Source: a virus
Length of the DNA: 47,268 nt
Virus record (IMG/VR): IMGVR_UViG_3300044695_005632
Coordinates: 1 to 47,268 of that record
Reading direction: 5' to 3' (one strand)
Position 1 is the stretch's first letter. Every line of letters starts with the position of its first letter. The notes below the pieces were generated by a model. It was not told the DNA's origin. It did not search any database and saw only the letters and a list, made by a program, of their open reading frames with translations. Below are positions 14,159 through 47,268 of the stretch, one piece after another. Both the position numbers and the translations under genes were made by a program.

Positions 14159-14721
14159 GCCGAAAGACGACAGTTCCGCCAGACGTCGAGTCCCTGGGTC
14201 CGGCCGCCGTCCGACACTACAAGCGGATGATCCGGGACGGCCAGTCCGAGCGATTTGCCGCCATGTGCGCGTCCCAGACGCCACCTGGCACCAGGGGGTC
14301 CGACAGGGCGTTCATGCAGGGGCGGTACAACAACGAGTACATGGGGGAGATGGGGCAGAAGTGGGCCGGAAAGCTGGTGCGCGAGGCCCGCGAGGCGGGC
14401 ATAAACACTTCCGGGCGGTTCTACATGGGAGGCCTCGCCGACAAGAGGGGCCACCGGGACCCTGAGGCGTGGGTAGACAGCGTGTCGGACGTCCGGCGCG
14501 TGGCGAAGGCCAGAAATCTGGAGGTCCACGGGATCATCGACTACGTGCCTCCCGAGCAGCCGCCCCCCAAGCGCATCGACATCGACCAAGGGATTCTCGA
14601 CGAGAACGTCGCCGCAGAGATGAAAAAGAACCCTGGCTCCAAGCGCGAGGACGTTGTCGAGCGCGTCAAGGACCGGATCACCCCGCACTGGAAGAAGAAG
14701 GGCAGGAAGTCATGTCGATGA
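14155..14721 (+). CDS. Hypothetical virion-block protein
   Basis: This 188-residue protein starts at a GTG overlapping the portal stop by four bases (GTGA). It is basic, with MGQKWAGKLVREAREAGINTSGRFYMGGLA in the middle region split by glycines and a strongly basic end (HWKKKGRKSCR). The pattern is reminiscent of small structural proteins that follow portals, but there is no diagnostic motif. The following gene begins inside its last ten bases. Confidence 0.65.
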   Translation: MSRKTTVPPDVESLGPAAVRHYKRMIRDGQSERFAAMCASQTPPGTRGSDRAFMQGRYNNEYMGEMGQKWAGKLVREAREAGINTSGRFYMGGLADKRGHRDPEAWVDSVSDVRRVAKARNLEVHGIIDYVPPEQPPPKRIDIDQGILDENVAAEMKKNPGSKREDVVERVKDRITPHWKKKGRKSCR

Positions 14722-15050
14722 AGATCGAGCACCAGCTGTACGTGACGGACACCTACACCATCACGGCGGACCCGCTGACTTCGGCCAGGGTCTCGTACGC
14801 GGCGGCCGGTGGCGGCATCATGCTTCCCGCCGGCGTTGCCGGCACGCCAACGGTGACCTGGTACGTTTCGGCCACGGCGACGAGCGCGCCGGTGCCGATC
14901 CAGGAGGCGGGCGCAAACGTCACGACCGCGATCAACTCCACGGGCGGGAACAAGGCGTACTACGTTCCAGACGCCCTGTTCGCGTCGGCGTTCGTCATTC
15001 CGGTCCTCAGCACCGGCACCTGCACCGCCACCTTCATGCTGAAGGGGTGA
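14712..15050 (+). CDS. Hypothetical beta-rich structural protein
   Basis: This 112-residue protein is Thr/Ala/Val-rich with alternating strands (YVTDTYTITADPLTSARVSY, TPTVTWYVSATATSAPV, GTCTATFMLKG). It looks like a compact beta sandwich typical of minor head or tail proteins. The ATG follows AGGAAG inside the previous gene. It is followed after three bases by the GTG of the connector-type gene. Confidence 0.65.
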   Translation: MSMKIEHQLYVTDTYTITADPLTSARVSYAAAGGGIMLPAGVAGTPTVTWYVSATATSAPVPIQEAGANVTTAINSTGGNKAYYVPDALFASAFVIPVLSTGTCTATFMLKG

Positions 15051-23472: not shown

Positions 23473-26400
23473 ATGGGCCTCACGGACCGCATTCGCAGCT
23501 TGCTCGGCAAGGTGTCGAAGACTCCGCCTGAGGCGAGGTCCGTAGACGCTACGCTGCGAGACAGCGGCGAAAGCACCTCCAGCACCGCCCCCACTCAGCG
23601 GCCGCTGAGGAAGACACTCGCTGACGTCGACAGGCCTGTCGCCAGGCGGGAAGTCGAGACCTCCGCCAACTCGGGCGACGAGAAGGGCGCGTCTCTCCGC
23701 GAGCAGATTCGCCGCACGAAGGAGCGCGAGGCGATCGGGTCCAGCAGGGGCCGGGACCTGGAGGGCCGCGTGGCTGCTCGCGTGGCGTCCGTTTCGGAGG
23801 CCGACGCCGAGACCGACCGGCTGATCTTCAACGCAGCCATTCGCCGAGCTGACGAGTTGCTCGCCATGCGCAACAACGCCGGCGACCCAAACGAGCCCGC
23901 CTACAAGAGGTCGCTCGCGAGAGCCGAGGAGCTGGAGAGGGCGCGGCAGATCTCTGACCCAGGCCGGAGAGCACGCATTCGCTCCCAGTTCGTGGAGAGG
24001 GGGGCGGAGGCCGAGAGCGAGGCGTTTCCAAGCCCCAAGAGCGGGAGGTCTGAGCCCAAGAAGGTGCCGAAGGGCATGGGGTTCTTGGTAGAGGAGGGCC
24101 TTGTCGAGCAGCCATCGGCAGGGGATCGAGCTCGCATTCGCAAAGAATCCTCCAAGCAGACCGAACTGATGCCCGGAAGGCCATCGGCCTTCAAGTACCC
24201 TCGCGGGCGCCACACGCCCGACCAAATGGCAGATCTTGCCATGCGGCTGATCGACGCCGGCGTTCCCGAGCACCGAGCAGCCGACGCCACGTTTGAGCTC
24301 CTCGACGCCATCAGCCAAACGCACACGTACCGAGACCCAGGCTATCTCTCCGATCCCGATTCCGCCGTTCTCAAGCCAGGCGTGCTGCAGCCTGGCGAGC
24401 GGAAGCTCACCGTGCCGTCGGCAACCGAAAGCCTCAACCAAGCGGGAGCGAAGCGAGATCTTCCGCGCCAGATTGTGGGAAGCAGCGAAGACAGTTGGGT
24501 AAACCAGCAGGCCCAGCAACAGCGCGTTTTCGCGGACAACATTGGCTTGACGGACAAGATCGGGCGCCTTTTCGCCAAGGGCTTCACTGCCAAGGAAGTA
24601 CAGCGCGCATTCAAGCGCGACATGGACGCGCTGGGCCTGGACAGCAGGGATCAAGAGCTTCTCGTTGTCTCGGTTCGCGGCACGCTCGGCATCCCGTCTC
24701 GTGCAACCGCAGAAGGCGCCGCAGAGTTTGAGGCTTGGAAGAAAACCAATGGCCTTGGCGACCAGCAGCCAAGCGACTCTGTGCCTGTGTCTCCACTGGC
24801 ATCCGACGACGACGTCGACCAGGCGTTCAATCGCATCCTGGAGAAGTACAACGCCAGGTCTCGCCTGCCATCGCAGGAAGAGATGAACGCCACCCTGGAG
24901 TCGACGCTCCGAGACGACCCCATTCAGGAAGGGCCTGTCAACCAGGGCGGACAGTTTGGGCGGCCCGACAACCCGCTCAAGGGCCTGATGGACGACCCTG
25001 AGGACATGTCGCCCGAGAGCCTCAGCGACTACCAGTACTCCAGCGACTTCCTCAAGACCCTGCAGCAGCTCAGCTCTCGGAACAAGATCACCGGATCGGC
25101 GAGGGCTGTCGGCCCACTTGAGCGGCACGTAGCTGCCGTTCGCGAAGCCATGCAGTTTGGCGACACGAGTCCGGCCGGAAAGCTGAGGAACCTCCTGCTT
25201 TCGCGCATGACCGCCGAGCAGGGCGAATCTGGAACCGCTTCCTATCGAGCGGCCTCCCTGCCAAATCGCTTGCAGCTCAAGCAGCTCGTCGGAAGAGACA
25301 TCGACAAGGCGGTTGCGGACCTGGCGGAGCAGGTCGGCTCCGAGCCGTCACTTGAGGCGATCGCCCCAAAGCTCGCCGAAAGCCTCCAGATGAACATGGA
25401 GGCGACCAAGGGGAGGTTCGTCGAATCGCGACTGAATAGCCCTGGCAGATTCATCGACAATCAGCAGCGCATCAAGACGCTCGCAGAGTCCGGGCAGCGA
25501 TACAACCCGACCGCCCAGCCGTACGAGGACGCCTACCGAGAGCCCGACGGATCGGAGACGCGGTTCCCAACCGTGGACGAGCAGGGGAATCCGCGATACT
25601 TCCCACAGCCAGAGATCTCCGAAGAGCCGTTCTCGTCGTCGGCCCCAGCAGCAAGGAAGTCGATCCGAGAGTCGCTGTCTTCGCTCCTCAATGACGTTCG
25701 GTCCGGGCTCCGGGAGACTTTCTCTGACGCTCCCGAGCGCACGGATGCCGCCCCCCAGGGCCCGCGCCCAGGAGACCCGATCACAGAATCCCGAAAGGGG
25801 CTCTTCATTGACGTCGGAGGTGGCGAGCGCCGCGAGCTTCTCAAGCTGGAGCGGAGAGGAAACACGTCTCAGACCAAGAAGCAACTCCAGGACTGGAAGG
25901 CCTACCTGCCGCTCGACGACGGCCGGTTTCTTGAGTACACGGCCAGCGGCTCCGACGGGACGGTCGCGACGAGAGAAGACATTCAGCGGATGGTCAATTC
26001 CGGATACGAAGTCGCACCCAACAATGCCGCGGGCGTCGAGGCGTTTACTCGCGACGCGTCATTCACGCGCGAAGAGGCTTACAGGTCCGGGCGAATCCTG
26101 CGCGAATACTACTCTGGCGGCGGAAACGCCGCAGATGTGGCGAGCGCAATCGAGTACATCGATCGACTCGACGGGCCTACCGCTCCAGCCGGCCTGAGGG
26201 ACGTCGCATTCGAAGGAATGGGGCTGTCTCAGAAAGAGGCCGTCGAGGCTCTGACAGAGATCCGCAAGAACGTCGACCAAATCAAGGAGGCCGCTGGAGG
26301 CGCTTGGACTCAAAAGGGCGCGAGCGTTGACGGCCCTCCGATCCCGTCTTTCAAGGACACGCCGGAAGGCGTCGAGGTGAGGCGCATCCTGCAGGAGCGG

Positions 26401-29400
26401 CGAGACAGAGGGGATATCGTTGATCCGGCGACAGAAGGACAGGCGGTGCGCGAAGTTCTTCTCCGATCGTTCAATGCCTCTGCCGAGGAGACAGCCGACC
26501 CAGCGAGGGCTACGAGAAACGTGCTGAACCGTCTCGACGCCCAGGGCATTCCGCTCGGCAACGACACGCTCATTCATCAGCTTGCGGCGTTTGCCAACAT
26601 CTCTCCCGACGAAGTGCCTGCTCCTCGCGATGACCTGGAGAAGCTGGAGTACGCGGCGATGCTCAGGCACGCCTACGCCTCTGCGCCACAAGAGTCTGTC
26701 GACAGAGTGCTGGAGCTAGAGGGCAAGGCCGCGAGGTCCTGGAGCCGAGCGTTCGGCGGCGCGTCCCGCAGGGCGTCTCCGATGTCAGAGAACCTTTCCG
26801 AGCCGGCTCCGTCTCCCGACGAGGCTCGCCGCATGCTGGAGGCCGACGCCGAGGCCGAGGGGGATGCCGCCGCCCGAGAGCGGTTCTTCTTGGATGCCAT
26901 GAAGCCGGAGAACCTTGAGGACGGCCGATTCGGAGTTCAGCCGTCCAAGGATCGGCAGGCTCCTCCTCGCCCTACGCCTGGCGCCGCCAGAGAAAAGCAC
27001 CTCAACGCCATCCGCGCCCTCTTCGGGACGGTCGACGAGGTAAACGCCGATGGCTCTGTGTCCACAACGCGAAACCCGGTCCCGCTTGGGTTTCAGGTGG
27101 CCGAAGGTCGGTTCCAGCAGCGCGTGTCTGGCGGCGCATTTGATGCAGTCCGCGCCGTTGATCTCAACGACCCGGAGCTTGCCATTGGAAGCATGCAGTC
27201 TGAGATCGACACTCTCCGCGAGTCGATCGCATCGAAGATGCAGCTCCCGAAGGAGAGGGCTGATCAGATCGCCGGCGACATCCAGCAAGACTACGACAGG
27301 CGCGCCCTCGGCGCTGACGACGGATCCAGGAAAGTGTCGCCCGCGCAGCTTCGCAAGCTGAAGAAGAAGATGTTTGCCGAGACGGAGAAGGCTCTGTCAG
27401 AAGAGCGCCTGGCGATGGCGGACGAGATGATCGCCTCCGGAGAATCCTCTGACCCTGATGTTGCGAAGCTCAAGGGGCTGCAGCAGAAGCTCGCTGACTT
27501 CCAGGAGTCGCTGTCGCGCGTGACAGGCGCCGACTACAAGTCCCGCACCACCGCTCGCGACGCGCAGACGTCTCTGATGGAGAGGCTTTTTGACAGCGCC
27601 GGAGTCGACAGGCAGTCGGAGGCAGGCCTCGGCAACGTCGAGGGGGAGATGCTGCCAGGCCAGCGCGAGCTGGTCAACAAGCAGAACAGGAGAACCGACC
27701 CGTGGAAGGACGGAGATCGGTCGCGCGTGTCCAAGCTTCCCAAAGAACCTATGTCGCGCAGCATGGACCGCGCGGAGTTCGCCGACATCGTGGAGCGCCT
27801 GTATGGCGGGAAGTACGGAGCATCCGACAACATCAAGGCCGTCGCCGCCGAGATGCACCGCCGAGGGATCATTGAGAGCCCAGAGGACTACGAATCCGTT
27901 ATCTACGACTCCCTGGCTCGCAACGGCTCGATCGCCAACTCCTTCTCCGAATCAGCGCTTCGTGACGCCGCCTGGCAGATCACCGACCATCTTGGTCTGA
28001 AGAAGACGGAAGCCCCAGATCGGTTTGCGAATCGCGTCACCGACGAAACGATCGCGAGAGGCAGGGAGCGGCTCGGGCTGAAAGACCAGGCGCCGCCACA
28101 AGCTCCACGCCGGTCGCTGCTGCAGAGACTGCTCGGGCAACAGCCTCCGGAAGCACCACAACCAGAGCCCGCGCAGGACTTCTCCGGGCTGGTCTCAGAG
28201 ATGGAGGCCAGCGTTCCCGAGTGGTCCAGGCGCCTTGCGCCGTTCGACGCCACGAAGCCAAGGCAGGCGTTCGAAGATCTCGGCGACCTCCCAGAGCCCG
28301 CAGGGCCGACGCAGCTCCAGGAGGAGCACGCTCGTCTTTTGCGTCTCGCCACAAGCCTGGAGTCTCAGCTCGGAGGTAACGCGGAGCTTGAGTCTCAGTT
28401 CGGCGATCGAGTGCGCGAACTCGTCAGGAGGATCCGCAACGACGAGATACCTGCCATCGAGGCCGCGAGGCATCGAGTTGGCACCGACGTCAAGGCTCAG
28501 TCTGCGGCCGCGGAGGCCCCAGCAGAGCGACTGACGTCGCGCCTGGCTCCCGAAACGCAGGTCCCTGGGGCTATGTTTAGTCCTATTGTCGACGCTGCCG
28601 AGGATATCCCTGGTCTTCCCGAGGACATCGAAGACCTTATCTCTCAGGGGGCGATGCCGCACTTCACGAGCGCTGCGGAGGCGCGCCGCCTCATAGAAGC
28701 GCAGCGCGGCAACGTCTACGACGCATCCACTCGGTCCGCGAACCTCGCGCAGCTGGATAAAAACTCCGAGGCCATCGAGGCCCTGAAGGCAGAGATGGAC
28801 GAGATTCGCGCCAGCGCTCGGCCCGGATCCGAGAGGCTGCTTGGGCTCGCCAAAAAGGACCTGGACGCGCTTCAGGCACAGCGCAGCAAACTGCAGTCCG
28901 CAGCCGAAGTGCGGGTTGAGCCCGTCGGGCCGTTCGACCCGAGGTCCAGCTTCTTGATCGAGGACGCTGGAGGCGCGAGTCGATTCAGCGCCAGTCGTGC
29001 ATACGGACCTCCAGGTGAGCCGAGCAGCATGACATCTCGCTATTCGGCAGAGATGCCTCGCGCCAGTACCGCCGAGGAGCTGGCGGAGATCGCGGATGAC
29101 CTCGATCATGTCGTGCTCGTGGGGCCTGACCGGCGGTACGCCCGGTCTTACGTGGCAGACATGCTGCGATCGTTCGCCGCCGAGAACGGAGCCGACTTGG
29201 GTGAAATCGACCAGGCGGCGGCGGGCGCTGGCGCCGCCCTCAGAAGCAAGGTGGCGCTCGCGAACCAGGGTGGCGGCGAGATGGATCTGATCAGAAACCT
29301 GGCCGGCAGAATGCCGGTCAGGTTGAACAGAGACGGAGGGGTCGACGTCGACTCCAACGCTCCGCTGGACCAGATGCTCTTCGACGACGTGCGGGATCCG

Positions 29401-30375
29401 AGGCTCAAGGGATTGATCGATTCCCTCCCAGAGGGCACGCCGGAGGACAGATACATCCCGCTGTTGGTGCGCCTCGTCGCGGACAGCCCTCTCGATTCAC
29501 TCAAGTCAGACCATCCGATGATCGCGGCGGCCAGGGCGCTCGCGCCTCGATACGAGGCAACCACCCTGCGAGAGCTGTCTCACGCCATCGGAGGCCACCT
29601 GTCGCAGCAGCTCGGGTCAATTCCCACCCGGCAGCGTATCGTCGGCATCTACAAGGGCCGACCGTCCCTTCGGTCGGCGGATGCTGACGCGGCCATGGAG
29701 ATGGATCTGGCTGCCGAGGACGCCGCAATGAGAGAGACTGCGCGGCCGGTCGGAAGGGCGCAGCCGCAGCCTTCGCCGCAGGCCAGGCAGCCCGCCCCAC
29801 AGCCGGAACCAGCTCGCGCTGACGAGGCGATGGGCGGCATCCAGGACGAGGACGCGCCGGATCCGTACTGGGATCCGCATGTCGCACGAGAGCGGATGGC
29901 GGAGGCTGATCGGCAGATCGCCAAAGCCCGGTGGCTGCCCCCAAAGGCGAGCCAAGCCATGCCGGCAGCGCCAGAGCAGGGCTCGGCTCCGCCTGGTCGA
30001 TCGAGGATTCGCGACCTGATCAGCAGAAACAAGTTCTATCTGGGGGCCGCAGTCGGCGCCGGGCTTGGCTCCTACGCCGCCAGAATGAATGGAGAAGATG
30101 ACTCGTACGCCGCAGGGCAGAGCGACTACATGGACGCCATCTCCGAAATGGCTAGTCGCGCCGCTGCGCAATACGAGGCCGATGAGCTCGCATCCGAGCC
30201 CGAGATGGACACAAATAAAGGGATGGCGCTCGCGCCGGTGGGGGCAGCCGGCGAGGAGATGCTGGCGTCGGCCGGGACGCAAGCGGCCTCGCCGGCCGCC
30301 GTCCTGTCTCGGCTCGCAGATGCCCGAAGGTCCCGATCTCCATACCTGACGACACAGAACCCATTCCCATACTGA
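23473..30375 (+). CDS. Giant 2300-residue putative internal virion / ejection protein
   Basis: This is the largest gene in the window. The product is almost wholly helical and charged with many short helical units separated by Pro/Gly/Ser linkers. Examples are QMADLAMRLIDAGVPEHRAA, GFTAKEVQRAFKRDMDALG and EFADIVERLYGGKYGAS. I see no lysozyme, transglycosylase or protease signature. Near the C-terminus there is one hydrophobic glycine-rich stretch (FYLGAAVGAGLGSYAA) that could cross a membrane. Size, composition and place before two further large proteins fit an internal protein ejected into the host to form a DNA channel, as gp16 does in T7. It could instead be a polyvalent protein. Confidence 0.7.
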   Translation: MGLTDRIRSLLGKVSKTPPEARSVDATLRDSGESTSSTAPTQRPLRKTLADVDRPVARREVETSANSGDEKGASLREQIRRTKEREAIGSSRGRDLEGRVAARVASVSEADAETDRLIFNAAIRRADELLAMRNNAGDPNEPAYKRSLARAEELERARQISDPGRRARIRSQFVERGAEAESEAFPSPKSGRSEPKKVPKGMGFLVEEGLVEQPSAGDRARIRKESSKQTELMPGRPSAFKYPRGRHTPDQMADLAMRLIDAGVPEHRAADATFELLDAISQTHTYRDPGYLSDPDSAVLKPGVLQPGERKLTVPSATESLNQAGAKRDLPRQIVGSSEDSWVNQQAQQQRVFADNIGLTDKIGRLFAKGFTAKEVQRAFKRDMDALGLDSRDQELLVVSVRGTLGIPSRATAEGAAEFEAWKKTNGLGDQQPSDSVPVSPLASDDDVDQAFNRILEKYNARSRLPSQEEMNATLESTLRDDPIQEGPVNQGGQFGRPDNPLKGLMDDPEDMSPESLSDYQYSSDFLKTLQQLSSRNKITGSARAVGPLERHVAAVREAMQFGDTSPAGKLRNLLLSRMTAEQGESGTASYRAASLPNRLQLKQLVGRDIDKAVADLAEQVGSEPSLEAIAPKLAESLQMNMEATKGRFVESRLNSPGRFIDNQQRIKTLAESGQRYNPTAQPYEDAYREPDGSETRFPTVDEQGNPRYFPQPEISEEPFSSSAPAARKSIRESLSSLLNDVRSGLRETFSDAPERTDAAPQGPRPGDPITESRKGLFIDVGGGERRELLKLERRGNTSQTKKQLQDWKAYLPLDDGRFLEYTASGSDGTVATREDIQRMVNSGYEVAPNNAAGVEAFTRDASFTREEAYRSGRILREYYSGGGNAADVASAIEYIDRLDGPTAPAGLRDVAFEGMGLSQKEAVEALTEIRKNVDQIKEAAGGAWTQKGASVDGPPIPSFKDTPEGVEVRRILQERRDRGDIVDPATEGQAVREVLLRSFNASAEETADPARATRNVLNRLDAQGIPLGNDTLIHQLAAFANISPDEVPAPRDDLEKLEYAAMLRHAYASAPQESVDRVLELEGKAARSWSRAFGGASRRASPMSENLSEPAPSPDEARRMLEADAEAEGDAAARERFFLDAMKPENLEDGRFGVQPSKDRQAPPRPTPGAAREKHLNAIRALFGTVDEVNADGSVSTTRNPVPLGFQVAEGRFQQRVSGGAFDAVRAVDLNDPELAIGSMQSEIDTLRESIASKMQLPKERADQIAGDIQQDYDRRALGADDGSRKVSPAQLRKLKKKMFAETEKALSEERLAMADEMIASGESSDPDVAKLKGLQQKLADFQESLSRVTGADYKSRTTARDAQTSLMERLFDSAGVDRQSEAGLGNVEGEMLPGQRELVNKQNRRTDPWKDGDRSRVSKLPKEPMSRSMDRAEFADIVERLYGGKYGASDNIKAVAAEMHRRGIIESPEDYESVIYDSLARNGSIANSFSESALRDAAWQITDHLGLKKTEAPDRFANRVTDETIARGRERLGLKDQAPPQAPRRSLLQRLLGQQPPEAPQPEPAQDFSGLVSEMEASVPEWSRRLAPFDATKPRQAFEDLGDLPEPAGPTQLQEEHARLLRLATSLESQLGGNAELESQFGDRVRELVRRIRNDEIPAIEAARHRVGTDVKAQSAAAEAPAERLTSRLAPETQVPGAMFSPIVDAAEDIPGLPEDIEDLISQGAMPHFTSAAEARRLIEAQRGNVYDASTRSANLAQLDKNSEAIEALKAEMDEIRASARPGSERLLGLAKKDLDALQAQRSKLQSAAEVRVEPVGPFDPRSSFLIEDAGGASRFSASRAYGPPGEPSSMTSRYSAEMPRASTAEELAEIADDLDHVVLVGPDRRYARSYVADMLRSFAAENGADLGEIDQAAAGAGAALRSKVALANQGGGEMDLIRNLAGRMPVRLNRDGGVDVDSNAPLDQMLFDDVRDPRLKGLIDSLPEGTPEDRYIPLLVRLVADSPLDSLKSDHPMIAAARALAPRYEATTLRELSHAIGGHLSQQLGSIPTRQRIVGIYKGRPSLRSADADAAMEMDLAAEDAAMRETARPVGRAQPQPSPQARQPAPQPEPARADEAMGGIQDEDAPDPYWDPHVARERMAEADRQIAKARWLPPKASQAMPAAPEQGSAPPGRSRIRDLISRNKFYLGAAVGAGLGSYAARMNGEDDSYAAGQSDYMDAISEMASRAAAQYEADELASEPEMDTNKGMALAPVGAAGEEMLASAGTQAASPAAVLSRLADARRSRSPYLTTQNPFPY

Positions 30376-30384
30376 CGGTGAAAC

Positions 30385-33207
30385 ATGGCTGAGCCCAATG
30401 AGTTCCTTCGCGCTTACGCAAAAGGCCCTGGCGCCGTGTCGACGCCAACGGCCAGTGGCGTTCGCAATGCGCTGGGGATGCTCTACGGATACGCCAAGCC
30501 GACGATAGACAGCGTCGCTTCGCAGGCCTCTAGCGCAGCCAAGTACGCAGGGTCCGAGATTTCTCGGGCTGCTGGCGTGGTGAGCAGGGACGTGTCCGGC
30601 GCAGTCGACGCTGCCTCCAAGGCGGTGCGCCCGCATCTCCCGCCATTGCTGCCCGGAGAAGAGGACTTCAGGTTCCTCTTGAAGGCCGGAAACAAGATCG
30701 CTCCAGGGTACATCCCACCCCTAGAGGACACTGAGCCGCAGCCCGCCCCTAATCCGAATCCATTCTGGAAAAGCGACGAGTTCCAGCAGATTGACGCTGA
30801 GGCCAACCCCATCAGCTTCCCTGCGGGATCGCAGCAATCTGGACCAAAGCCGAGCGAAATCCGCACCAGGTTGGAGTTTCCGGAGGCCAGCAACAAGCAG
30901 TTCGAAGAGAGCAGGGCCCGCGATGCAGATGCGCGGAAGGCCAGCGGACAGGCGTCACTCAGGCGTCAGTCGTACGAAGCGGCCGCCAAGGCCGGCAAGG
31001 ACAGCCTGCTGAGATTCCCGGATCAACCGCCGCCGGCGCAGGGCGCGGACTCCATGGATCGCCTCAAGGAGCGGTCGGCCGCCAACGGGTTCCCGATCTC
31101 CGATGCTCCGGCGCGAGGATTCGCACTCCCAGGACACGAGCCGAAGAACTTCAGCGTCGACGGTGCCATTGCCGAGCAGGCCATCGGCAGGGACGAGGCG
31201 ATCGCGGCGATGGCGCAGGAGATGGGCGTCGGCCCACAGAATCAGTTTCCCAGCGAGATCGACGAGAAGATCGCCGCAGTCCGCCAGGCGTCCGGCAAGA
31301 GCCCGTCTCCTGTCGACAGCCAGCTGGTCATGCCGAAGACGATCGCCTATCCGCCCCCCCCTGGCGCGCTCATCGACGCAGGGCTAGCTCCGCAGTTCCC
31401 TCCGACTCCCGACGAGATCAGCGCACGGAGCGCGAGAGTCGCCTCCGCCGCCGCGATGCCTCGCCTCGCCGATGGCGCTGTCGTTCCAGGGCTGGGCACC
31501 GGCGTGATTTCCCCCTCGGCTTCGAACCGAGTCGCAACGCTGGCTCGGGATGCGCGCAAGGCGCAGGAGGCCCGCTCTGCGGAGGAGGCGGCAGCCAAGC
31601 TGAAGGCCGACGCCACGGCTCAGCAGGATCGCGCCAAGGCGGAAACTGCGGCCAAGGCGGAAGCTGCGGCCAAGGAGCAGGAGCGCGTCGCCGCCGAGCA
31701 GGAGGAGCAGCGCCGGCGATCGCCCATGGCCGGCATGGGCGGCGTGATGATTTCTCCCGCCGAGAGGATGAACGCCGACACCAACATCTCTGGCCGGTAC
31801 AGCGGCCCAGTCGGATCCCGCAAGGCTCCGATGGCAATGTCGCCGTCCGACGTGAACGACGTCACCGGCATGGAGATGTCTCCGCTGGAGGCGCACGAGG
31901 CTGGCGCCACCCCAGACTACGACCTCCTCGCCGACAAGCTTGGTCTGCCGCGAGACATGCCGGAGGAAGAGCGGCTGGAGCAGGCCCGCGTCTTTTGGGG
32001 CGACCAGGTCAGCCGCAGCAAGAACTCAGTCGTTCGCGAGGCTCAGGGCGGCGGGTTCTACTTCTCGCCTACCGACGAGGCCAAGGACAGGTACAGGCGG
32101 CAAGGGCTCGCGGCCGACGCACGGAGCATCAAGCGCACGTACCCTCGATCGCAGGATGGGGGGCAGGAGCACATCGAGGCGCTCGACCAGGCCGTTGCGG
32201 AGAACGATCCCAAGTCCATCGGAGAGATCCGCAAGCGCCTGTACGACGACAGGCAGACGGCCACAGCTGCGTTCATTCGCGACCGAGGGCGGATGCAGCA
32301 GGTCACGCGCAACATGACCGACCCGCGCCTGGCTCCTGCGATGCTGGCTGAATCGCTCAAGAACGCGCAGACTCCCCAGCAGAAGGCAGACGTTTACAGG
32401 CAGTTCGGAATGGACGAGCAGGCCGAGCTCATCGAGTCTCGCGGTTCTGCGGAGTCGCAGGCCGATAAGAACCGCTCGTCAACCGAGGGAATGCATAGAC
32501 TCGACTACGAAACCGAGAACCGGAAGATCGACGCCGGCGAGCGCGTTGGGGCGCTCCAGGCAAAGGCCACGCAGGCCACCGCGGATGCTACCGCGAGGGG
32601 CAAGGAGCTTGATCGCGCCCAGGAGGACAGGAAGATCGATCTCGCAGAGCGCGCACAGAAAGCCGATGAGAGCAAGGATGAGGCTGACGCGGATGCAAAG
32701 AGAGTTGAGCAGGAGCGCAAGCAGATGGGGCCTGGCGACGCCAGGGAGGCGGCGGCCGATCGAGTCCTCCAGCCCCTGCTGACGGCCGACGAGAGCCAGA
32801 CCGACAAGGCATACCGCGAGCTTCCGGCAATCGTAAGGAAGCACCACCTCAACGTCACCGACATGCTCGCCAAGGAGGGGATCGACCCCACTACTCTGCC
32901 TGGACTTCGCAACTCCAAGGCGGGCTATACCGAAGACGATGCCGCCGAAGAGCTGCTCGCGCAAGCAAACAGACGCGCGGACGCCTCGCAGCACCCCCTG
33001 CTCCGGGTGTGGACCGCGACGCACGCCCAGCAAGTGGCCGCCGAGGCCAAGAAACTTCGCGGATTCACGAGTGCACAAACGCAGTCCAAGCAGTACGAGG
33101 CGTTTGCTGCCGGGATGCGGCGAGTAGGGGTATTCCCGAACTCCCAGGCGTTCATCGACAACGCCCGACAGAACGGCATCAAGATCCCGGCGCAGCAGGG
33201 GAGCTAA
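30385..33207 (+). CDS. Large putative internal virion protein (940 residues)
   Basis: The protein starts with a helical Ala/Ser-rich region (DSVASQASSAAKYAGSEIS) followed by proline-rich linkers. The middle holds a Lys/Ala/Glu-rich coiled coil encoded by an 18-base tandem repeat (AKAETAAKAEAAAKEQER). A second long charged helical stretch lies at about 690-790 (RAQKADESKDEADADAKR). No enzyme motif is visible. It starts ten bases after the giant gene and precedes another 1115-residue protein, so the three likely act together in the virion or in DNA ejection. Confidence 0.65.
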   Translation: MAEPNEFLRAYAKGPGAVSTPTASGVRNALGMLYGYAKPTIDSVASQASSAAKYAGSEISRAAGVVSRDVSGAVDAASKAVRPHLPPLLPGEEDFRFLLKAGNKIAPGYIPPLEDTEPQPAPNPNPFWKSDEFQQIDAEANPISFPAGSQQSGPKPSEIRTRLEFPEASNKQFEESRARDADARKASGQASLRRQSYEAAAKAGKDSLLRFPDQPPPAQGADSMDRLKERSAANGFPISDAPARGFALPGHEPKNFSVDGAIAEQAIGRDEAIAAMAQEMGVGPQNQFPSEIDEKIAAVRQASGKSPSPVDSQLVMPKTIAYPPPPGALIDAGLAPQFPPTPDEISARSARVASAAAMPRLADGAVVPGLGTGVISPSASNRVATLARDARKAQEARSAEEAAAKLKADATAQQDRAKAETAAKAEAAAKEQERVAAEQEEQRRRSPMAGMGGVMISPAERMNADTNISGRYSGPVGSRKAPMAMSPSDVNDVTGMEMSPLEAHEAGATPDYDLLADKLGLPRDMPEEERLEQARVFWGDQVSRSKNSVVREAQGGGFYFSPTDEAKDRYRRQGLAADARSIKRTYPRSQDGGQEHIEALDQAVAENDPKSIGEIRKRLYDDRQTATAAFIRDRGRMQQVTRNMTDPRLAPAMLAESLKNAQTPQQKADVYRQFGMDEQAELIESRGSAESQADKNRSSTEGMHRLDYETENRKIDAGERVGALQAKATQATADATARGKELDRAQEDRKIDLAERAQKADESKDEADADAKRVEQERKQMGPGDAREAAADRVLQPLLTADESQTDKAYRELPAIVRKHHLNVTDMLAKEGIDPTTLPGLRNSKAGYTEDDAAEELLAQANRRADASQHPLLRVWTATHAQQVAAEAKKLRGFTSAQTQSKQYEAFAAGMRRVGVFPNSQAFIDNARQNGIKIPAQQGS
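31633..31674 (+). repeat. 18-bp in-frame tandem repeat
   Basis: The unit gccaaggcggaaactgcg (31633-31650) is repeated as gccaaggcggaagctgcg (31651-31668), with the start of a third copy after it. It encodes AKAETA/AKAEAA units of a coiled coil in the 940-residue protein. The repeat count could vary between relatives. Confidence 0.75.
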
Positions 33208-33223: not shown

Positions 33224-36200
33224 ATGCCAATCTTCGGCGGAAACACCGACTACTCCCCCAAGCGCCCTGCATTCAGCCCGTCCGCAAAGCGCGAGGCGAT
33301 CGAAAACCTCAACCGGTCTGGCGGCGGAACGCTGTCGGACTTGTTCTGGCTGCTCGACACGATTCCTGCAGCTGCGAGAGGGACGGTGTCGGGCATCGCA
33401 ACTGGCGATCCAGGCAAAGGCCTGAGGGCGTTCACTCAGAACTCCGACGATCGCGTCGACGGCCGCGAGATGCTCGGAGATCTCGGCCTCGATCCGACGC
33501 CAGGCCAGAAGACGTGGACGAACTTCGGTGCGGGCATTGCCGCAGAGATGGTCACAGACCCTCTCGCACTGCTCTCTGGCCCCATGAAGGCGCTTACCCA
33601 GGCCGGCAAGATCGCATCGAAGGCCGGACTTCTCCAGAACGCCGGCGAGGCCCTGTCGCGTAAGTACCTGGCTGGCCAGGCCACTGGAGAGGTGGCCGAT
33701 TTGGCCCAAGATGCAGTCGCGAGAATCGGCCGGGATGTCAGCCCGACAGACATCCTCGGGCGACCGCTCGTTGGGCCTCGCGCTGCTCGCAGGTACGGGA
33801 CGCTCGGCGATGTGATCGACTATTCGCAGGACCCTGAGCAGGCCAGCAGAAGCGTCCTTGCTGCGCTCGGCGGCGACTCGTCGTCGCTCGACAGGCTGAG
33901 GTCGTCTCCGCTGGGGCGCGACATCGGAATCGGGCTTCCGCTGATGGACCCGGCCTTCTCCGTGTCTATTCCCGGAGGGGATGGCCTGGCCTCTGCAATG
34001 GACTACCTCGGCGCAGCCGCCAGGTGGAGCGCTCCAGGCCGCGTGTTCAACAAGTTGACCAACCCGCTCGTCGGAGATGCGCTAGGCGCCGACGACCAGA
34101 TGATGACTTCCGGAGCCAACATCGCTCGGCAGCGGGCCGCCGCAGAGGGCCGCCGGGAGGCGACATACCAGGCCGGTCGACTAAGGCTCAGCGAGCCCGA
34201 TGCGTTCTCGGAAGAAGGAAATCGGGCGCTCGGCCGCTCGATCGAGAAGCCCTTCGTGAACGCGCACGAGCAGGCCGACAACGTCTGGCAGTCCTCGCAC
34301 CCTGCCGCCAAGCAGTACATGCAGTGGTGGGAAGAGTACGCCAAGGGGTCTCCCGAGAGGCTGCGGTCTGTTGGCCTGAGAGGCGAGGTGTTCTCGGACC
34401 CGCACGTCTCTGGGTATCTGCCGCGCAGGGCAGAGAGCGCGCTGGAGATGGCCGGAGAATCGAACCCATCGCTTGGCCGCGCCCTCAACACAATGACCAG
34501 CGATCAGATGAGGCGAGCCGAAGAGATGATGGTTCCCGGCGGCAGGGACACGATTGCGTTCGAATTGTCCAAGGACCCATTCGTCGCCGGCGGCAAGCGG
34601 GCTGCCAAGAACGACGCCGAGGCGACGCGCTACATCGCCGAGAAGCTTGAGCTTGAGCCTGGCAGGGAGGGGCAGAGGCAGGCAGAGGCGCTTGCGGGCC
34701 TTCTTCATCGCCTGCCCGATCACATCATCAAGGAGGTTCCTCTCTACGGGCAGCACCCGATCGAGATGATCACCCGGTACGTCGAGGGGCGAGAAGGCGC
34801 CGAGGCGATGCAGGGAGCCCTGCTCGACTCGCTGGCCTATCACGCCAAACAGGGTCCGGCTCCGCTCATCGAGGGCGGAAGGCACATCTCCGTCAAGAAC
34901 GCCATCGAGAAGGTGTCGTCGCAGGCTGCGTCTGACTCGGGATCGATGGAAGGTGCGGCCAGTCAGATCCGCTCGCGCCTTGCCAAGAGGTTCGGGATGA
35001 GCCCGGACTCCGTGGCGCTCGGCGAGTACGCCATCCCTGAAGAAGTGGCCGACCGCCTGGCGAGAGCCAGCGAGGCCTACTCCAAGACCGAAGCATCGAA
35101 GGGGCTTGCCCAGTACATCGACAACTACAACGCCACCTGGAAGGCGTCGATTCTGTCCTGGCCGAGCAAGATGGTTCGCGATTTCTACTCCGGCGCATAC
35201 TCCAACTGGCTGGAGGGAGCTGCATCTTCCAGGGGGGTTGGGTCCGCCTACGGACTTCTGACGGCCGGGCCTCAAAGCAGCTCGTTTCTGTCGGCCCTGA
35301 AGAACACACACCTGTACTCCACTGCCGACGACGACGCCATTGCACGTTTCTGGGCGGACCTTTCTGCAGAGGGTCTTCTCGACACCGGCATGGAACTCGA
35401 CAGGGGCATCTCGGTGTCCGGCGGCAAGGTCCTCAACACCATGCCGGGAGCTGCGCCGGAGGCGTTCGGCTCTGCCATCGCCGAGCTTGGCCCGCAGGCC
35501 GGCAGAAGCTGGAAGCAGTACGCCGTGGACATCGCCCCAAATCCCTTTGCGTCCAGAGAGCAGCTCTCCAGGGGTCCGGTTGCCAGGTTCGGAGCCAAGG
35601 CCGGGAACCTGGTCGACAAGATCAACCGCCTGTCCGGGTACATGGAACTCCTGATGCAGGGCGTCGCCCCGCAGGAGGCGGCCCGCCGGATCAAGAGGGC
35701 GCACGTCGACTACTCGTCCCTGACCGCATTCGAAAAGGGCATCCGCGACAAGTTCATGCCGTTTTACGCCTACACGTCACGGTCCATGGCTGAGGTAGTT
35801 CGCCAGATGGCAGAGCGGCCAGGCGGGCGGTACGGCCAGGGACTTCGCGTCTACGAGCGCATGCAGGAGCGCGACGACGGAGAGTACACGCCCTCGTACC
35901 TGAGGCAGAACTTTGCTGCACCGATCCCGAGCGACTTCCCGCTGCTCGGCACCGACACGCCAGGAATGACCCGCTACCTGACCGACATTGACCTGCCTGG
36001 CTACGACCAGCTGAACATGGTTGTGCCCGGAGACCCGCGCACCACCGTCCAGCGCGGCTTCCAGATGATCCACCCTGCCCTGCGCACTGGCCTTGAGTTT
36101 GGGACCGGCCAAGACGCATTCACGGGCCAGGATCTCCGCAAGGGGTCCAGCGGCCCGCTGACCAAGATCGGCAGGGCAGTGACTGGCGACGACCAGCTGC

Positions 36201-36571
36201 GGCTTCCGGCCGAGATCGAGAAGATCTACGACCTGCTGCCTGGCCTCAGCAGGCCGACTCGCGCGATTTCCCAGGTCGTCGACCCCACGTACGACGTCGA
36301 TCTCCCTTCCAGGCTGACGGCCGCTGCGTTCACGAACCTCACCGGCGCCAAGATCCGAGACGTGACGGACGAGGAGGCCGATCGCGACGCAATCAGAAGG
36401 CTTCGCGATGCCGCCGCTCCGTACACCCGAGACCACACCACCGCCTACATCACGGACTCCATGAAGCCGATGGTTCCGCAGTCCGCATCCAGGTCGCTGG
36501 ACCTCGCCAACCAGATCCAGCAGGAGCGGCTGAAGAAGAAGCAGCGGTCAGGAGATCGACGGCGGCCGTGA
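33224..36571 (+). CDS. Large putative ejected / polyvalent virion protein (1115 residues)
   Basis: The protein has an N-terminal region with DLFWLLDTIPAAARG and FGAGIAAEMVTDPLALLSG, a segment common near the start of large phage internal proteins. Near residue 845 it carries FEKGIRDKFMPFYAYTSRSM, close to the FExxxxxxxxPFYxxxR motif of large polyvalent-type phage proteins. The C-terminus is charged. These proteins are thought to be packed in the virion and delivered with DNA. The gene is the last of the long virion operon, and its 3' end overlaps the convergent integrase gene by 24 bases. Confidence 0.7.
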   Translation: MPIFGGNTDYSPKRPAFSPSAKREAIENLNRSGGGTLSDLFWLLDTIPAAARGTVSGIATGDPGKGLRAFTQNSDDRVDGREMLGDLGLDPTPGQKTWTNFGAGIAAEMVTDPLALLSGPMKALTQAGKIASKAGLLQNAGEALSRKYLAGQATGEVADLAQDAVARIGRDVSPTDILGRPLVGPRAARRYGTLGDVIDYSQDPEQASRSVLAALGGDSSSLDRLRSSPLGRDIGIGLPLMDPAFSVSIPGGDGLASAMDYLGAAARWSAPGRVFNKLTNPLVGDALGADDQMMTSGANIARQRAAAEGRREATYQAGRLRLSEPDAFSEEGNRALGRSIEKPFVNAHEQADNVWQSSHPAAKQYMQWWEEYAKGSPERLRSVGLRGEVFSDPHVSGYLPRRAESALEMAGESNPSLGRALNTMTSDQMRRAEEMMVPGGRDTIAFELSKDPFVAGGKRAAKNDAEATRYIAEKLELEPGREGQRQAEALAGLLHRLPDHIIKEVPLYGQHPIEMITRYVEGREGAEAMQGALLDSLAYHAKQGPAPLIEGGRHISVKNAIEKVSSQAASDSGSMEGAASQIRSRLAKRFGMSPDSVALGEYAIPEEVADRLARASEAYSKTEASKGLAQYIDNYNATWKASILSWPSKMVRDFYSGAYSNWLEGAASSRGVGSAYGLLTAGPQSSSFLSALKNTHLYSTADDDAIARFWADLSAEGLLDTGMELDRGISVSGGKVLNTMPGAAPEAFGSAIAELGPQAGRSWKQYAVDIAPNPFASREQLSRGPVARFGAKAGNLVDKINRLSGYMELLMQGVAPQEAARRIKRAHVDYSSLTAFEKGIRDKFMPFYAYTSRSMAEVVRQMAERPGGRYGQGLRVYERMQERDDGEYTPSYLRQNFAAPIPSDFPLLGTDTPGMTRYLTDIDLPGYDQLNMVVPGDPRTTVQRGFQMIHPALRTGLEFGTGQDAFTGQDLRKGSSGPLTKIGRAVTGDDQLRLPAEIEKIYDLLPGLSRPTRAISQVVDPTYDVDLPSRLTAAAFTNLTGAKIRDVTDEEADRDAIRRLRDAAAPYTRDHTTAYITDSMKPMVPQSASRSLDLANQIQQERLKKKQRSGDRRRP

Positions 36572-44001: not shown

Positions 44002-44448
44002 ATGGAGGCAAGGATGCCAGACGACCTCGGGCTAGCCGAAGATCTTGAGTCGCCATGGAGGATGTTCCTCGCAGGCGTGCTCTCCGAAACCGTGTCGAAC
44101 TGTCGGTGGCTGTCAGTCGCCGCCGCCGACAAGGAGAAGTGCCGGACTGCAGCCGTTGGGGACAACTTCGGGCGCCGGCTCGTCTGTTCCGCAGTGGCGT
44201 GGAACTGGGTGTTTTCAAGCCCGAAATGCACCCTCGGGTTCCGGCAGGTGTGCGAGGAGCTCGGCATCGAGGAGGACTACGTCAGGCGCCGAATACTGGC
44301 CGACTGCCGCAATCGGGAGGACATAAACCAGGTGGTCCTCTGCGCGATGAGGGACATCCTGCCGACGGTCTGCCGGCGGGCCTGCCCGACGGACTCCCTG
44401 TGCGAGCAGGTTGACTGGAGCATTCCCGGAAAGGCGAGGGCGCTGTGA
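44002..44448 (+). CDS. Conserved hypothetical phage protein
   Basis: This 148-residue protein ends its structured part with FRQVCEELGIEEDYVRRRIL, a short motif I recall from small phage-encoded proteins of unknown function. Most of the rest is helical (LAGVLSETVSNCRWLSVAAA). The C-terminus is Cys-rich (VCRRACPTDSLCEQ). The ATG at 44002 has AAGGAG eight bases upstream; ATG 44014 with GGAGGCAAGG is an equally good start. It is the last gene before the run of membrane proteins and couples to it by GTGA. Function unknown. Confidence 0.65.
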   Translation: MEARMPDDLGLAEDLESPWRMFLAGVLSETVSNCRWLSVAAADKEKCRTAAVGDNFGRRLVCSAVAWNWVFSSPKCTLGFRQVCEELGIEEDYVRRRILADCRNREDINQVVLCAMRDILPTVCRRACPTDSLCEQVDWSIPGKARAL

Positions 44449-44801
44449 CTGCCGAAGAGCTGACTGCCGCCGTTGGCAAGTTTCTGTCGGACGCCAGGGC
44501 AAAGGCGTCCGGCGGCATCACCGTCGCGGAGTTTGGGCAACTGACCGCCCAGGTTCTGTCGATCGCGGTCGCCGGACTGGAGTCGATCCCGGCCGACGGA
44601 GCGTCCAAGAAGGCCTGGGCGGTGCGGTGCGTTGAGCTGCTGTTCGACAGCTGCGCCGACTCCTGCGTCCCGCTGTTCGCGAAGCCGATCTGGTGGCTCG
44701 CCAGGCCGGCGCTCAGGTCTCTCGTCCTGGCGGCAGCTGGCGGCGCCATGGAGCAGATCCTCGCCATGACCAGGGCCGCCGCCCAGGAGCCGAAGGCATG
44801 A
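44445..44801 (+). CDS. Hypothetical amphipathic/membrane-associated protein
   Basis: This 118-residue protein starts at a GTG overlapping the previous stop. It is helical and Ala/Leu-rich with a region that could associate with a membrane (SCVPLFAKPIWWLARPALRSLVLAAAGGA, split by W-W and P residues). It has several cysteines (VRCVELLFDSCADSCV). It opens a run of five overlapping or adjacent genes with membrane segments around a protease. Role unknown; the layout suggests a lysis or envelope function. Confidence 0.65.
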   Translation: MTAEELTAAVGKFLSDARAKASGGITVAEFGQLTAQVLSIAVAGLESIPADGASKKAWAVRCVELLFDSCADSCVPLFAKPIWWLARPALRSLVLAAAGGAMEQILAMTRAAAQEPKA

Positions 44802-45430
44802 CCACTGGTTTCGTTTTGGCCGCAGCGGCAGCAGCGTATGTCCTCTGGTCCAGGCCGCCGTCGACCTATCAGCCTCAGCCCCTCTCTCCCATTGCTCCGC
44901 CCGGCCTTGCTCCGCTGGGGGCGCCGGAGGCCGGAGGCGGCGGACCGCACCCGTTGACTCTGATCGCGATCCTGATGGCCGGCGCGATGGTGGCTTTCGC
45001 AATTCGCGATTCGCGAAAGGACCCGGCGCCACCTCCGATGCCGAGCCCAATCGCAGGCATCGACCTCGTCGGAAAGTTCGTCGGAGACAGGGCCGCAGAG
45101 GACGCCGCAATCACGGCGGAGCTACTTGACCAGCTCGCCTCTGTCATCGAATGGGATGGCCTGCAAGAGTGGAATGGATCTCCGAAGAGCCCGAGGCTCA
45201 AGACCGGCCAGCAACTGGCAGAACTCCGCTCGGTTGCTCGCGAGTACAGAACCTCAGGCGTCAGCCTCGGAGACCGGCAGCCTCTGGCGCGAGATGAGAT
45301 CGCCGCGTACCTCGACAAGGAAGTCGGCAACGACGGCGGGCCGATCGACATGGCAGGCCGAGCGCGATGGATTCGTGCCTTCAGGGCCATCAGCGCCTCC
45401 GCGAGGTCCGCTTCTGGAGGCAGGCAATGA
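44798..45430 (+). CDS. Membrane protein with two transmembrane segments
   Basis: This 210-residue protein has an N-terminal hydrophobic segment (FVLAAAAAAYVLWS), a proline-rich spacer and a second one at about 53-69 (LTLIAILMAGAMVAFAI). The remaining C-terminal part is soluble, charged and helical (ELLDQLASVIEWDGLQEW). Two short helices plus a soluble domain could fit a holin or spanin-like role or a virion membrane protein; the sequence does not decide. It is coupled at both ends by ATGA overlaps, the downstream one with the protease gene. Confidence 0.65.
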   Translation: MTTGFVLAAAAAAYVLWSRPPSTYQPQPLSPIAPPGLAPLGAPEAGGGGPHPLTLIAILMAGAMVAFAIRDSRKDPAPPPMPSPIAGIDLVGKFVGDRAAEDAAITAELLDQLASVIEWDGLQEWNGSPKSPRLKTGQQLAELRSVAREYRTSGVSLGDRQPLARDEIAAYLDKEVGNDGGPIDMAGRARWIRAFRAISASARSASGGRQ

Positions 45431-46560
45431 CAGCTCGGCAGCGATACGCATGGACCGGATCGGCGATCCTGCTCGTGGTCTGCGCCGCGATCCTCGGCCT
45501 GATCGTCGAGCGAGCGGCCGAGGATCGGTCGCCAGGTCCTCAGGGCAGGTTCGGCTACAACCCAAACCCTGGCGAGTCTCGCCGCGTCATCGAGGACTTC
45601 GGCCCTGACGGCCTGTTCTCTTCGGCCGGCGAGGACGCGATCTCTAAGTCAGAGGGCAGGGACACGTTCCTGTACCGGCCCGCGATGAAGGCGCACCACG
45701 CGCTCTACGGAGAGCCGTGGGTGGTCGGCCGTCAGGGCATAGGAGACTGCGTTTCTTGGGGTTGGTCCCACGCAATCTGGATAGCTCTTTGCTGCGACTG
45801 GGAAACCGGTCGCCTGCCGATGCCTCCGCCTCTCGTGGCCACGGAGAGCATCTACGGCGGATCGAGAGTGGAGGCTAGGTCAAGGGATGGGTCCGGGTCT
45901 TCTGCCGTCGGCGGATGGAGCGACGGCAGCTATGGGGCCGCGGCCGCGAGGTTCGTCCGCAACTGGGGGGTGGCGTTCCGCGAGAACGCAGGCGGCCACG
46001 ACCTGACTCAGTACTCGGCAGACAAGGCGAAAAACTGGGGCGCGTATGGCAACGGCGGGCAGAACGACCAGGGGAAGTTTGACCAGTTCGTCAAGTCGCA
46101 CCCGGCCCAGCATGTCGCCGCAGTCGGGACGTTTGAGGAAGCTGCCGCCGCCATCGAGTCTGGCTTTCCTGTCGCCGTATGCAGCTCGCAGGGGTTTGCG
46201 TCTGTCAGGGACAAGGATGGATTCGCGCAGGCATCCGGGCAATGGCAGCACTGCCAGTGCTTCATAGCGGTCAGGTACAAGAAGAACGGGTCGCCCGACG
46301 ACGCGCTGTTGTGCCTCAATTCTTGGGGCCCGGACTGGATAAGCGGAGGCCGTTGGCCAGACGACATGCCAGAGGGCTCGTACTGGGTGCGCCGGTCGGT
46401 CGTCGAGAGAATGCTCGGAGGCCAGGACACAGACTCGTTTGCCGTTGGTTCCGTCGGAGGATTCAAGTGGCGCCCAGTCAGTCACCGCGAGTGGTTCCAG
46501 CCGGCCAGCCGAGCGCAGTCTCAGCCTTCCGCATTCTCCAGCGCAGCCCTGGCATTCTGA
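45427..46560 (+). CDS. Membrane-anchored papain-like cysteine protease
   Basis: This 377-residue protein has one N-terminal hydrophobic helix (SAILLVVCAAILGLIV, about 12-27), which suggests a signal anchor with the enzyme outside the cytoplasm. The catalytic domain shows a papain-like set: Gln103 and Cys108 in GRQGIGDCVSWGWSHA, His275 in GQWQHCQCFIAV, and Asn298 in CLNSWGPDW. GGWSDGSYGAAAARF and ESGFPVAVCSSQGF fill the rest of the fold. The order Cys-His-Asn is right for family C1-like enzymes. No classical peptidoglycan hydrolase is seen elsewhere, and planctomycete walls hold much protein, so a role in lysis or entry is attractive. That function is inference; the fold assignment is stronger. 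Confidence 0.8.
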   Translation: MTARQRYAWTGSAILLVVCAAILGLIVERAAEDRSPGPQGRFGYNPNPGESRRVIEDFGPDGLFSSAGEDAISKSEGRDTFLYRPAMKAHHALYGEPWVVGRQGIGDCVSWGWSHAIWIALCCDWETGRLPMPPPLVATESIYGGSRVEARSRDGSGSSAVGGWSDGSYGAAAARFVRNWGVAFRENAGGHDLTQYSADKAKNWGAYGNGGQNDQGKFDQFVKSHPAQHVAAVGTFEEAAAAIESGFPVAVCSSQGFASVRDKDGFAQASGQWQHCQCFIAVRYKKNGSPDDALLCLNSWGPDWISGGRWPDDMPEGSYWVRRSVVERMLGGQDTDSFAVGSVGGFKWRPVSHREWFQPASRAQSQPSAFSSAALAF

Positions 46561-46567
46561 GGTACGT

Positions 46568-46840
46568 ATGAAGAACGACACTCGTGACGCTCTGCTTTGC
46601 GTGGCGATCGGCATTGCCATCGGGTGGTGGCTGGGCAGCTCTCCCGAGAGCCCTGTCAATCCGAACTCGCAGAGGCCCGTGCTGTCTGCGGTAGGCCGGC
46701 TGGCGAGAACCGCCGCAAGGCTCGGCCTATGGCTCGCTGTGTCCGCCGAGCCCCCACCGCCGCAGCAGCGGCAACTCGTCCACTCGCCGGCCTACGATGC
46801 CGAGGGGCATCCTGTCCTCGATCACAGGGAGGGCTGGTGA
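46568..46840 (+). CDS. Small single-pass membrane protein
   Basis: This 90-residue protein has one hydrophobic segment near the N-terminus (ALLCVAIGIAIGWWLG), a serine/proline linker and a moderately hydrophobic middle (RLGLWLAVSAEPPP). It starts at an ATG after TGAGG just downstream of the protease stop, and its own stop overlaps the next ATG (TGATG). Such a protein next to an exported enzyme may be a holin or spanin component. The family is not recognised. Confidence 0.65.
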   Translation: MKNDTRDALLCVAIGIAIGWWLGSSPESPVNPNSQRPVLSAVGRLARTAARLGLWLAVSAEPPPPQQRQLVHSPAYDAEGHPVLDHREGW

Positions 46841-47070
46841 TGAAAGCTGTCGGTCAACTCCTGATGCTCTCAGTTTTGGCGCTGCTTGTGGTTGAAAACG
46901 GTGGGTCGCCACTCAGGCCCGGCGATGTGATCACGGTTCACGTTCCGCACCGAGGCACGAAGGACTTCGTGGTCCGCGACATGGGCTGGGGATGGATGCT
47001 TGAAAGCCGCGACGGGCTGGTGTGGAACATGCACGCCCTCGGGCGACATCGATGGAAGAAAGCCAAATGA
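46840..47070 (+). CDS. Small exported/membrane protein with beta domain
   Basis: This 76-residue protein begins with a signal-peptide or membrane helix (QLLMLSVLALLVV). A short beta-rich domain follows (RPGDVITVHVPHRGTKDFVV) and a basic end (RHRWKKAK). It overlaps both neighbours (TGATG upstream, ATGA downstream). The small soluble domain would lie outside the cytoplasm. It could be part of a lysis or envelope-penetration complex; nothing more can be said. Confidence 0.65.
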   Translation: MKAVGQLLMLSVLALLVVENGGSPLRPGDVITVHVPHRGTKDFVVRDMGWGWMLESRDGLVWNMHALGRHRWKKAK

Positions 47071-47268
47071 AGCCCATCGACAGCCGCTGGAAGATCGTCG
47101 CCGGAATCGCCGTTCTTCTGTGGGTCGCCCGTCCCGTTCCAGGGATCATCGCCTACCGGCTTGATTCCCAGGAGTGGATGCTCTGGTGGATGAAGATCAT
47201 CGCGCCGACGCTCGCCGGCGGTGGGCTGACGGTGACCTCGCCGTTTTGGTGGATGCTCCTCGAGGTGC
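47067..47268 (+). CDS. Membrane protein, cut by the window end
   Basis: This frame starts with a four-base overlap (ATGA) on the preceding gene and is open to the end of the window (67 codons). It has two hydrophobic stretches (IVAGIAVLLWVARPVPGII and a later WMLWWMKIIAPTLAGGG), typical of a small holin-like protein. Joined to base 1 it continues in frame to a stop at 140, giving a product of about 113 residues. It closes the putative lysis run. Holin identity is a guess based on size, hydrophobicity and context. Confidence 0.7.
   Translation, partial: MKPIDSRWKIVAGIAVLLWVARPVPGIIAYRLDSQEWMLWWMKIIAPTLAGGGLTVTSPFWWMLLEV

Follow-up and report, generated by a model that had tools for sequence, protein, structure and literature searches.

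We describe here a cassette of genes arranged around a papain-like cysteine protease, located at positions 44445 to 47268 of the virus record IMGVR_UViG_3300044695_005632, as a candidate lysis system of tailed phages. The stretch that was analysed, referred to below as the window, is the complete IMG/VR virus record of 47,268 bases. A large undescribed phage group, many members of which are linked to Planctomycetota, carries this cassette, and the arrangement seen in the window is more than a matter of chance: hundreds of contigs have the protein family, and of the first 86 related loci most share the gene order. Double-stranded DNA phages are currently understood to lyse bacteria by cutting peptidoglycan. 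Since a protease cassette is present here and no known peptidoglycan hydrolase was found in the genomes searched, these phages may break out of their hosts by attacking an envelope protein. Whatever the target of the enzyme, lysis is very probably the role of the cassette; as to how it is achieved, we lean, with some reserve, towards a papain-family C1 protease that replaces the classical endolysin and cuts an envelope protein, the likely target being protein and not a peptidoglycan peptide. In the literature searched, which was covered in part (titles, abstracts and selected passages), no protease-based phage lysis system of this kind is described.

The cassette and its papain-like enzyme

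The cassette genes in the window are as follows (aa, amino acids; TM, transmembrane).

44445..44801, + strand: h124 family, small protein of 118 aa with a borderline C-terminal hydrophobic stretch; holin-like by position only
44798..45430, + strand: TM210 family, membrane protein of 210 aa with one strong TM segment followed by a soluble domain; directly upstream of the protease gene
45427..46560, + strand: predicted papain-like (C1) cysteine protease of 377 aa with an N-terminal membrane helix at about residues 9-27 and the set Gln103/Cys108/His275/Asn298
46568..46840, + strand: s90 family, protein of 90 aa with a hydrophobic N-terminus and a conserved C-terminal HxxGW motif
46840..47070, + strand: protein of 76 aa with a hydrophobic or signal-like N-terminus; counted in the cassette by coupling only (ATGA overlap)
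47067..47268, + strand: further TM protein, 5' part only, cut by the record end

A first-pass annotation of this DNA, made from the sequence alone, had described a papain-like enzyme together with its catalytic residues. Its open reading frame is present at 45427-46560, and the residues are encoded as stated: Cys108 at 45748-45750, His275 at 46249-46251 and Asn298 at 46318-46320. The oxyanion residue Gln103 is encoded as well, at 45733-45735. The same annotation took all genes of the cassette to be coupled. There are five 4-base start/stop overlaps (GTGA or ATGA), at 44445, 44798, 45427, 46840 and 47067, and in front of the ATG at 46568 a gap of a few bases is found; at 44445, the GTG start of the h124 gene falls within the stop codon of the preceding gene. 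Its description of five small hydrophobic neighbours is accurate for most of them, the exception being the borderline 118-aa protein, whose window copy does not pass the strict TM cut-off of the hydropathy scan that 47 of 74 h124 homologues pass. Among the first loci, 74 homologues each of h124 and s90 were found. No Pfam or PHROG family was matched by h124, and the Pfam scan of the window proteins gave no family for the 76-aa protein. The cassette of the window is incomplete, being interrupted by the record end at 47268.

The protease itself has no match in Pfam or PHROGs, a single-sequence search of the PDB was empty, and PF00112 (Peptidase_C1) was matched neither by the window protease nor among the four family members scanned. 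A profile built from 64 relatives, however, reaches papain at E 3.7e-4, via the Gln/Cys and the His/Asn-Ser-Trp-Gly segments. Gln103, Cys108 and His275 are invariant in all of these relatives (64/64, down to 22% identity), and position 298 is occupied by Asn in 61 of the 64 and by Gln in the other 3. The structure was predicted from the 64-sequence alignment with pLDDT 90.1 and pTM 0.84 (a four-sequence alignment gave pLDDT 31.6). In the model, an N-terminal helix spans residues 3-33, within which the hydropathy scan places a TM segment at residues 9-27, and the catalytic Cys opens a helix at 108-126. Among solved structures, the model matches xylellain best (E 1.7e-8, probability 1.00), with about 12% identity across the structural alignment, and then cathepsins and plant papains; several proteins named "Peptidase C1" from uncultured Caudovirales are among its viral matches. 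The papain-like fold foreseen by the first-pass annotation, which had asked for a structure prediction, is thus borne out by the model, whose best matches are C1 proteases. Given the predicted fold and the conserved Gln/Cys/His/Asn set, an active C1-type cysteine peptidase would be the expected gene product, and on the model the protease appears to branch off distantly within the C1-like fold group, unseen by the Pfam C1 model.

Conservation and replacement of the cassette

Viral relatives of the protease were found in IMG/VR in numbers of 393 with the four-sequence alignment and in at least 550 contigs with a broader alignment; no relative was detected in 50,697 GenBank phages, with three family members as queries, or in plasmids, with one family member as query. 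The order that recurs in the first loci is h124 - TM210 - protease - s90 - (GlsB-like in some) - s102, where the GlsB-like protein matches PF04226 below the cut-off. Several genome contexts contain the cassette, which moves between them as a unit: it can be observed with the S78 prohead protease on one side and the capsid gene on the other, downstream of tail genes and upstream of an integrase, after the capsid gene in an arrangement like that of the window (loci L064 and L065), before the terminase in an element of Blastopirellula marina, and in a planctomycete chromosome (L086). Conserved synteny in other phages, named earlier as a check, is therefore strong, the unit being kept across these settings. 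In many phages, a 51-aa Cys-rich, zinc-ribbon-like protein is located between the prohead protease and the cassette (for example L048:4845-5000 and L266:2203-2358); it is reminiscent of the Com regulator of phage Mu. One virus record of 59,584 bases (G016) contains two separate protease copies, at 14086-14973 and 55693-56565.

The proteases fall into two clades. In clade 1, to which the window belongs, the hydropathy scan detected an N-terminal TM segment in 80 of 83 members; in clade 2, whose members are of about 290-330 aa, it detected none (0/69), and there the gene upstream of the protease codes for an exported protein (63 loci). The C-terminal domains of this exported partner and of TM210 show a weak profile similarity (E 4.7e-4, probability 32%), which appears with alignments and not in a single-sequence comparison and is suggestive of a relationship between the two. 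Homology of h124 to a 113-aa protein of the soluble clade was considered and found no profile support. The same was true of homology between TM210 and a 145-aa lipoprotein of L086, which is therefore regarded as a positional equivalent only.

Using the capsid protein as bait, we discovered an alternative cassette. Loci L264-L267 carry the same prohead protease and the same h124, and they lack TM210 and the papain-like protease of this family; in their place, an exported protein of 125-131 aa, a 290-aa protein, an exported Trypsin_2 serine protease (PF13365, 8.7e-20) with a Cys-rich N-terminus, and two small TM proteins are found. This alternative set occurs in 64 contigs, 54 of which contain the trypsin gene, 49 h124 and 6 an integrase nearby. 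The trypsin cassette and the soluble-clade cassette each contain a TM/coiled-coil protein, and these two are homologous (probability 98%, E 3.7e-13). Among all loci, the papain-like protease is present in 237 and the 290-aa protein in 68, and no locus has both. When only the 92 loci that span the region from h124 to the capsid gene are considered, 75 hold the papain-like protease and 17 the 290-aa protein, with none holding both and none holding neither; these locus counts are not independent, because some loci are overlapping pieces of one contig. Thus, one of two cassettes occupies the slot, and neither contains a recognisable enzyme other than a protease. A Gln-x5-Cys and a Gly-His-Ala-Val pattern make the 290-aa protein papain-like by motif only; its homology to the papain-like protease found no support (hhalign probability 1%), and it had no PDB match.

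Evidence for lysis and rival explanations

Classical lysis enzymes were searched for in six frames in 28 virus records (the window and 27 related records, about 1.2 Mb) at E values up to 0.1, with positive results in the control genomes. Amidase_2 (PF01510), phage lysozyme (PF00959), NlpC/P60 (PF00877), M23 (PF01551), SLT (PF01464) and CHAP (PF05257) were found in 0/28 records, so that the absence of a recognisable endolysin, originally remarked for the window, extends to its 27 relatives. Additionally, whole-Pfam scans of 254 proteins from seven records, namely two 41-kb phages of the soluble clade (85 proteins), the window with two records of the integrase context (93) and two records of the head context (76), revealed no wall hydrolase; they list terminases, portals, capsids, integrases, methylases and other structural or replication families, from gene calls that are rough in the GC-rich records. 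A 1047-aa window protein was considered as a hidden endolysin and rejected, its PHROG matches being virion structural families. One of these many matches, over the stretch 366-440, is named "baseplate hub subunit and tail lysozyme", and this stretch is taken as a shared non-lytic domain because capsid, fibre and wedge families match it as well. The window also codes for three giant proteins of 2300, 940 and 1115 aa (23473-30375, 30385-33207 and 33224-36571) with no usable Pfam or PHROG match, which are perhaps internal virion proteins. A Mom-family protein (PF25680, 1.3e-51) is encoded either by the window or by a relative, one of the two scanned alongside it.

If the cassette acts in lysis by proteolysis, its small membrane proteins would time the event and cause opening or depolarisation of the inner membrane, and the protease, anchored in the clade of the window and apparently soluble in the sister clade, would have its site of action in the periplasm or at the wall, alongside the membrane or exported partner encoded beside it; cutting of the envelope protein would then cause the cell to burst. 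In related cassettes an exported thioredoxin, and in other phages a trypsin-like protease set in the same slot, are present as genes; the former may reduce disulfides, and the latter may stand in for the papain-like enzyme. The first-pass annotation had already proposed protease-based lysis. The fold, the synteny, the lack of an endolysin and the finding that the enzyme is not a maturation protease in the head context all speak for this proposal, while its substrate is left unsupported; the replacement by a trypsin-bearing set and the exported thioredoxins beside the cassette are support that it did not have. More tentatively, we suggest that a widespread class of tailed phages might lyse its hosts by proteolysis of a protein-based envelope, with interchangeable sets of a papain-like protease or of a trypsin-like protease and a second enzyme, with thioredoxin reducing disulfide cross-links in some lineages, and with no peptidoglycan hydrolase.

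About six lineages (B. marina L085, L128, L168, L096, L170/L188 and L086) encode exported thioredoxin-like proteins, identified by Pfam, a short distance downstream of the protease. In L086 and L188, a Cys-rich stretch like the one in s102 precedes the thioredoxin domain, and a stretch of similar kind is found in front of the trypsin domain. Exported thioredoxins would fit a disulfide-linked envelope protein. For Rhodopirellula, a protein sacculus with disulfide bonds is described in the literature (PMC2754498), and boiling SDS is stated to leave the shape of the planctomycete wall intact (PMC3422733).

The first scan of bacterial genomes gave five loci: one in Blastopirellula marina DSM 3645 (Pirellulaceae, Planctomycetota), two in metagenome-assembled genomes (MAGs) labelled as planctomycetes, one in an unplaced MAG and one in a genome labelled Alphaproteobacteria. 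From these bacterial-genome matches, planctomycete hosts are therefore well supported for part of the protease family. In L085 and L186 (genomes G001 and G153), a prophage-like set of about 25 kb, with the cassette and with terminase, portal and tail genes, is located near the same chromosomal gene (U32 peptidase) in B. marina and in another genome of the phylum; this set could be a vertically inherited, gene-transfer-agent-like element. In a Planctomycetota MAG (L086:6686-9966), small TM proteins, a lipoprotein, an anchorless protease and a thioredoxin lie among ordinary chromosomal genes with no phage structural genes alongside, so that this cassette is possibly domesticated. One further protease copy (G184:C1:873542-874447) runs through two TGA codons and is thus broken or recoded.

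Several observations weigh against proteolytic lysis of a planctomycete. The protease is present in only 5 of 294 sampled genomes of the phylum of Blastopirellula, and the host of the window itself, known by inference from the bacterial matches, is probably a planctomycete. The trypsin and thioredoxin genes are absent from the window, whose cassette runs off the record end. No known holin or spanin family was found by Pfam or PHROGs among the small proteins tested, and the hydrophobicity of h124 is weak; TM and TM/coiled-coil proteins are present in the cassettes. A very divergent hydrolase could escape detection, given the high divergence of these phages and the lack of any match for several large window proteins. 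Moreover, four cultured Planctomycetes contain lysozyme-sensitive peptidoglycan, and lysozyme disrupts them (PMC4432640); for this reason a pure protease might not suffice.

This last observation also favours the most serious rival, in our view an unlikely one, namely that the cassette does serve in lysis, with its papain-fold enzyme acting on peptidoglycan as an endopeptidase or amidase of a new endolysin family that cuts wall peptides and not proteins. Its position and exclusivity fit an endolysin, NlpC/P60 and CHAP enzymes of the papain superfamily are common peptidoglycan hydrolases (PMC10318531), and weaker fold matches of the protease include a phage "N acetylmuramidase" fragment and Lysin A proteins. 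However, the Gln/Cys/His/Asn-Ser-Trp-Gly set and the best structures are those of C1 proteases, not of CHAP or NlpC, no separate wall-binding domain was recognised in the protease, and a trypsin-like protease in the alternative cassette and exported thioredoxins with some cassettes are poorly accommodated by a wall hydrolase.

A function outside lysis, in envelope modification, superinfection exclusion or host takeover, is less probable still. It would agree with the membrane location of the protease, with apparently resident elements such as that of B. marina (L085) and with the isolated chromosomal copy in L086, whereas the presence of exactly one of the two cassettes in 92/92 slots is more in line with an essential function than with an accessory gene, late structural genes surround the cassette, and the records examined yielded no other candidate for lysis. 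Most improbable is a virion or assembly protease for head maturation or entry. In one setting the enzyme is indeed encoded in the stretch that separates the S78 prohead protease from the major capsid gene, but other settings have the cassette next to an integrase, behind the tail genes, or ahead of the terminase, and clade 1 has a membrane anchor; as a prohead maturation protease the enzyme was rejected for the head-gene slot, because those phages carry a separate standard S78 protease (PF04586, 4.8e-33) just upstream.

Comparison with known lysis systems

If lysis by proteolysis is correct, swappable and mutually exclusive protease cassettes with no detectable peptidoglycan hydrolase would represent a second chemistry for the lysis of bacteria, and they would provide an independent readout on the debate over whether protein or peptidoglycan is the load-bearing layer in planctomycete envelopes. 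The cassettes would also be a source of candidate lytic enzymes for a hard-to-manipulate phylum and would serve as an annotation marker for planctomycete phages, which current family libraries miss.

With xylellain and other papain-family C1 peptidases (MEROPS C1), the window family has in common the fold, the order of the catalytic residues and the NSWG motif; it differs from them in being phage-encoded within a membrane-protein cassette and in having an N-terminal anchor in one clade. CHAP and NlpC/P60 phage endolysins belong to the same papain superfamily fold class, yet neither gave a profile match, and the catalytic set and closest structures of the protease are C1. The closest functional parallel is offered by PeiW and PeiP of methanogen phages (C71), which are also phage cysteine peptidases, namely pseudomurein endoisopeptidases that lyse hosts with a wall other than ordinary murein (PMC4592898). 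Those enzymes are transglutaminase-like, use Cys-His-Asp and cut a pseudomurein isopeptide bond, whereas the window family is C1-like with Asn and has a bacterial setting; membership in C71 is contradicted by Asn as the third residue in 61/64 relatives and by the absence of a PF12386 match in the Pfam scans.

In their organisation, the cassettes resemble the holin/endolysin/spanin cassettes, including those with signal-anchored (SAR) endolysins, which likewise combine small membrane proteins with one enzyme in a mobile unit; in contrast to them, the window-type cassettes have no recognised muralytic enzyme, holin or spanin, and carry proteases and sometimes a thioredoxin. The N-terminal anchor of SAR endolysins later leaves the membrane, and an anchor is predicted from sequence here for the 80 of 83 clade-1 members. 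Classical endolysins offer familiar cases of a lytic enzyme that exists in both anchored and soluble versions.

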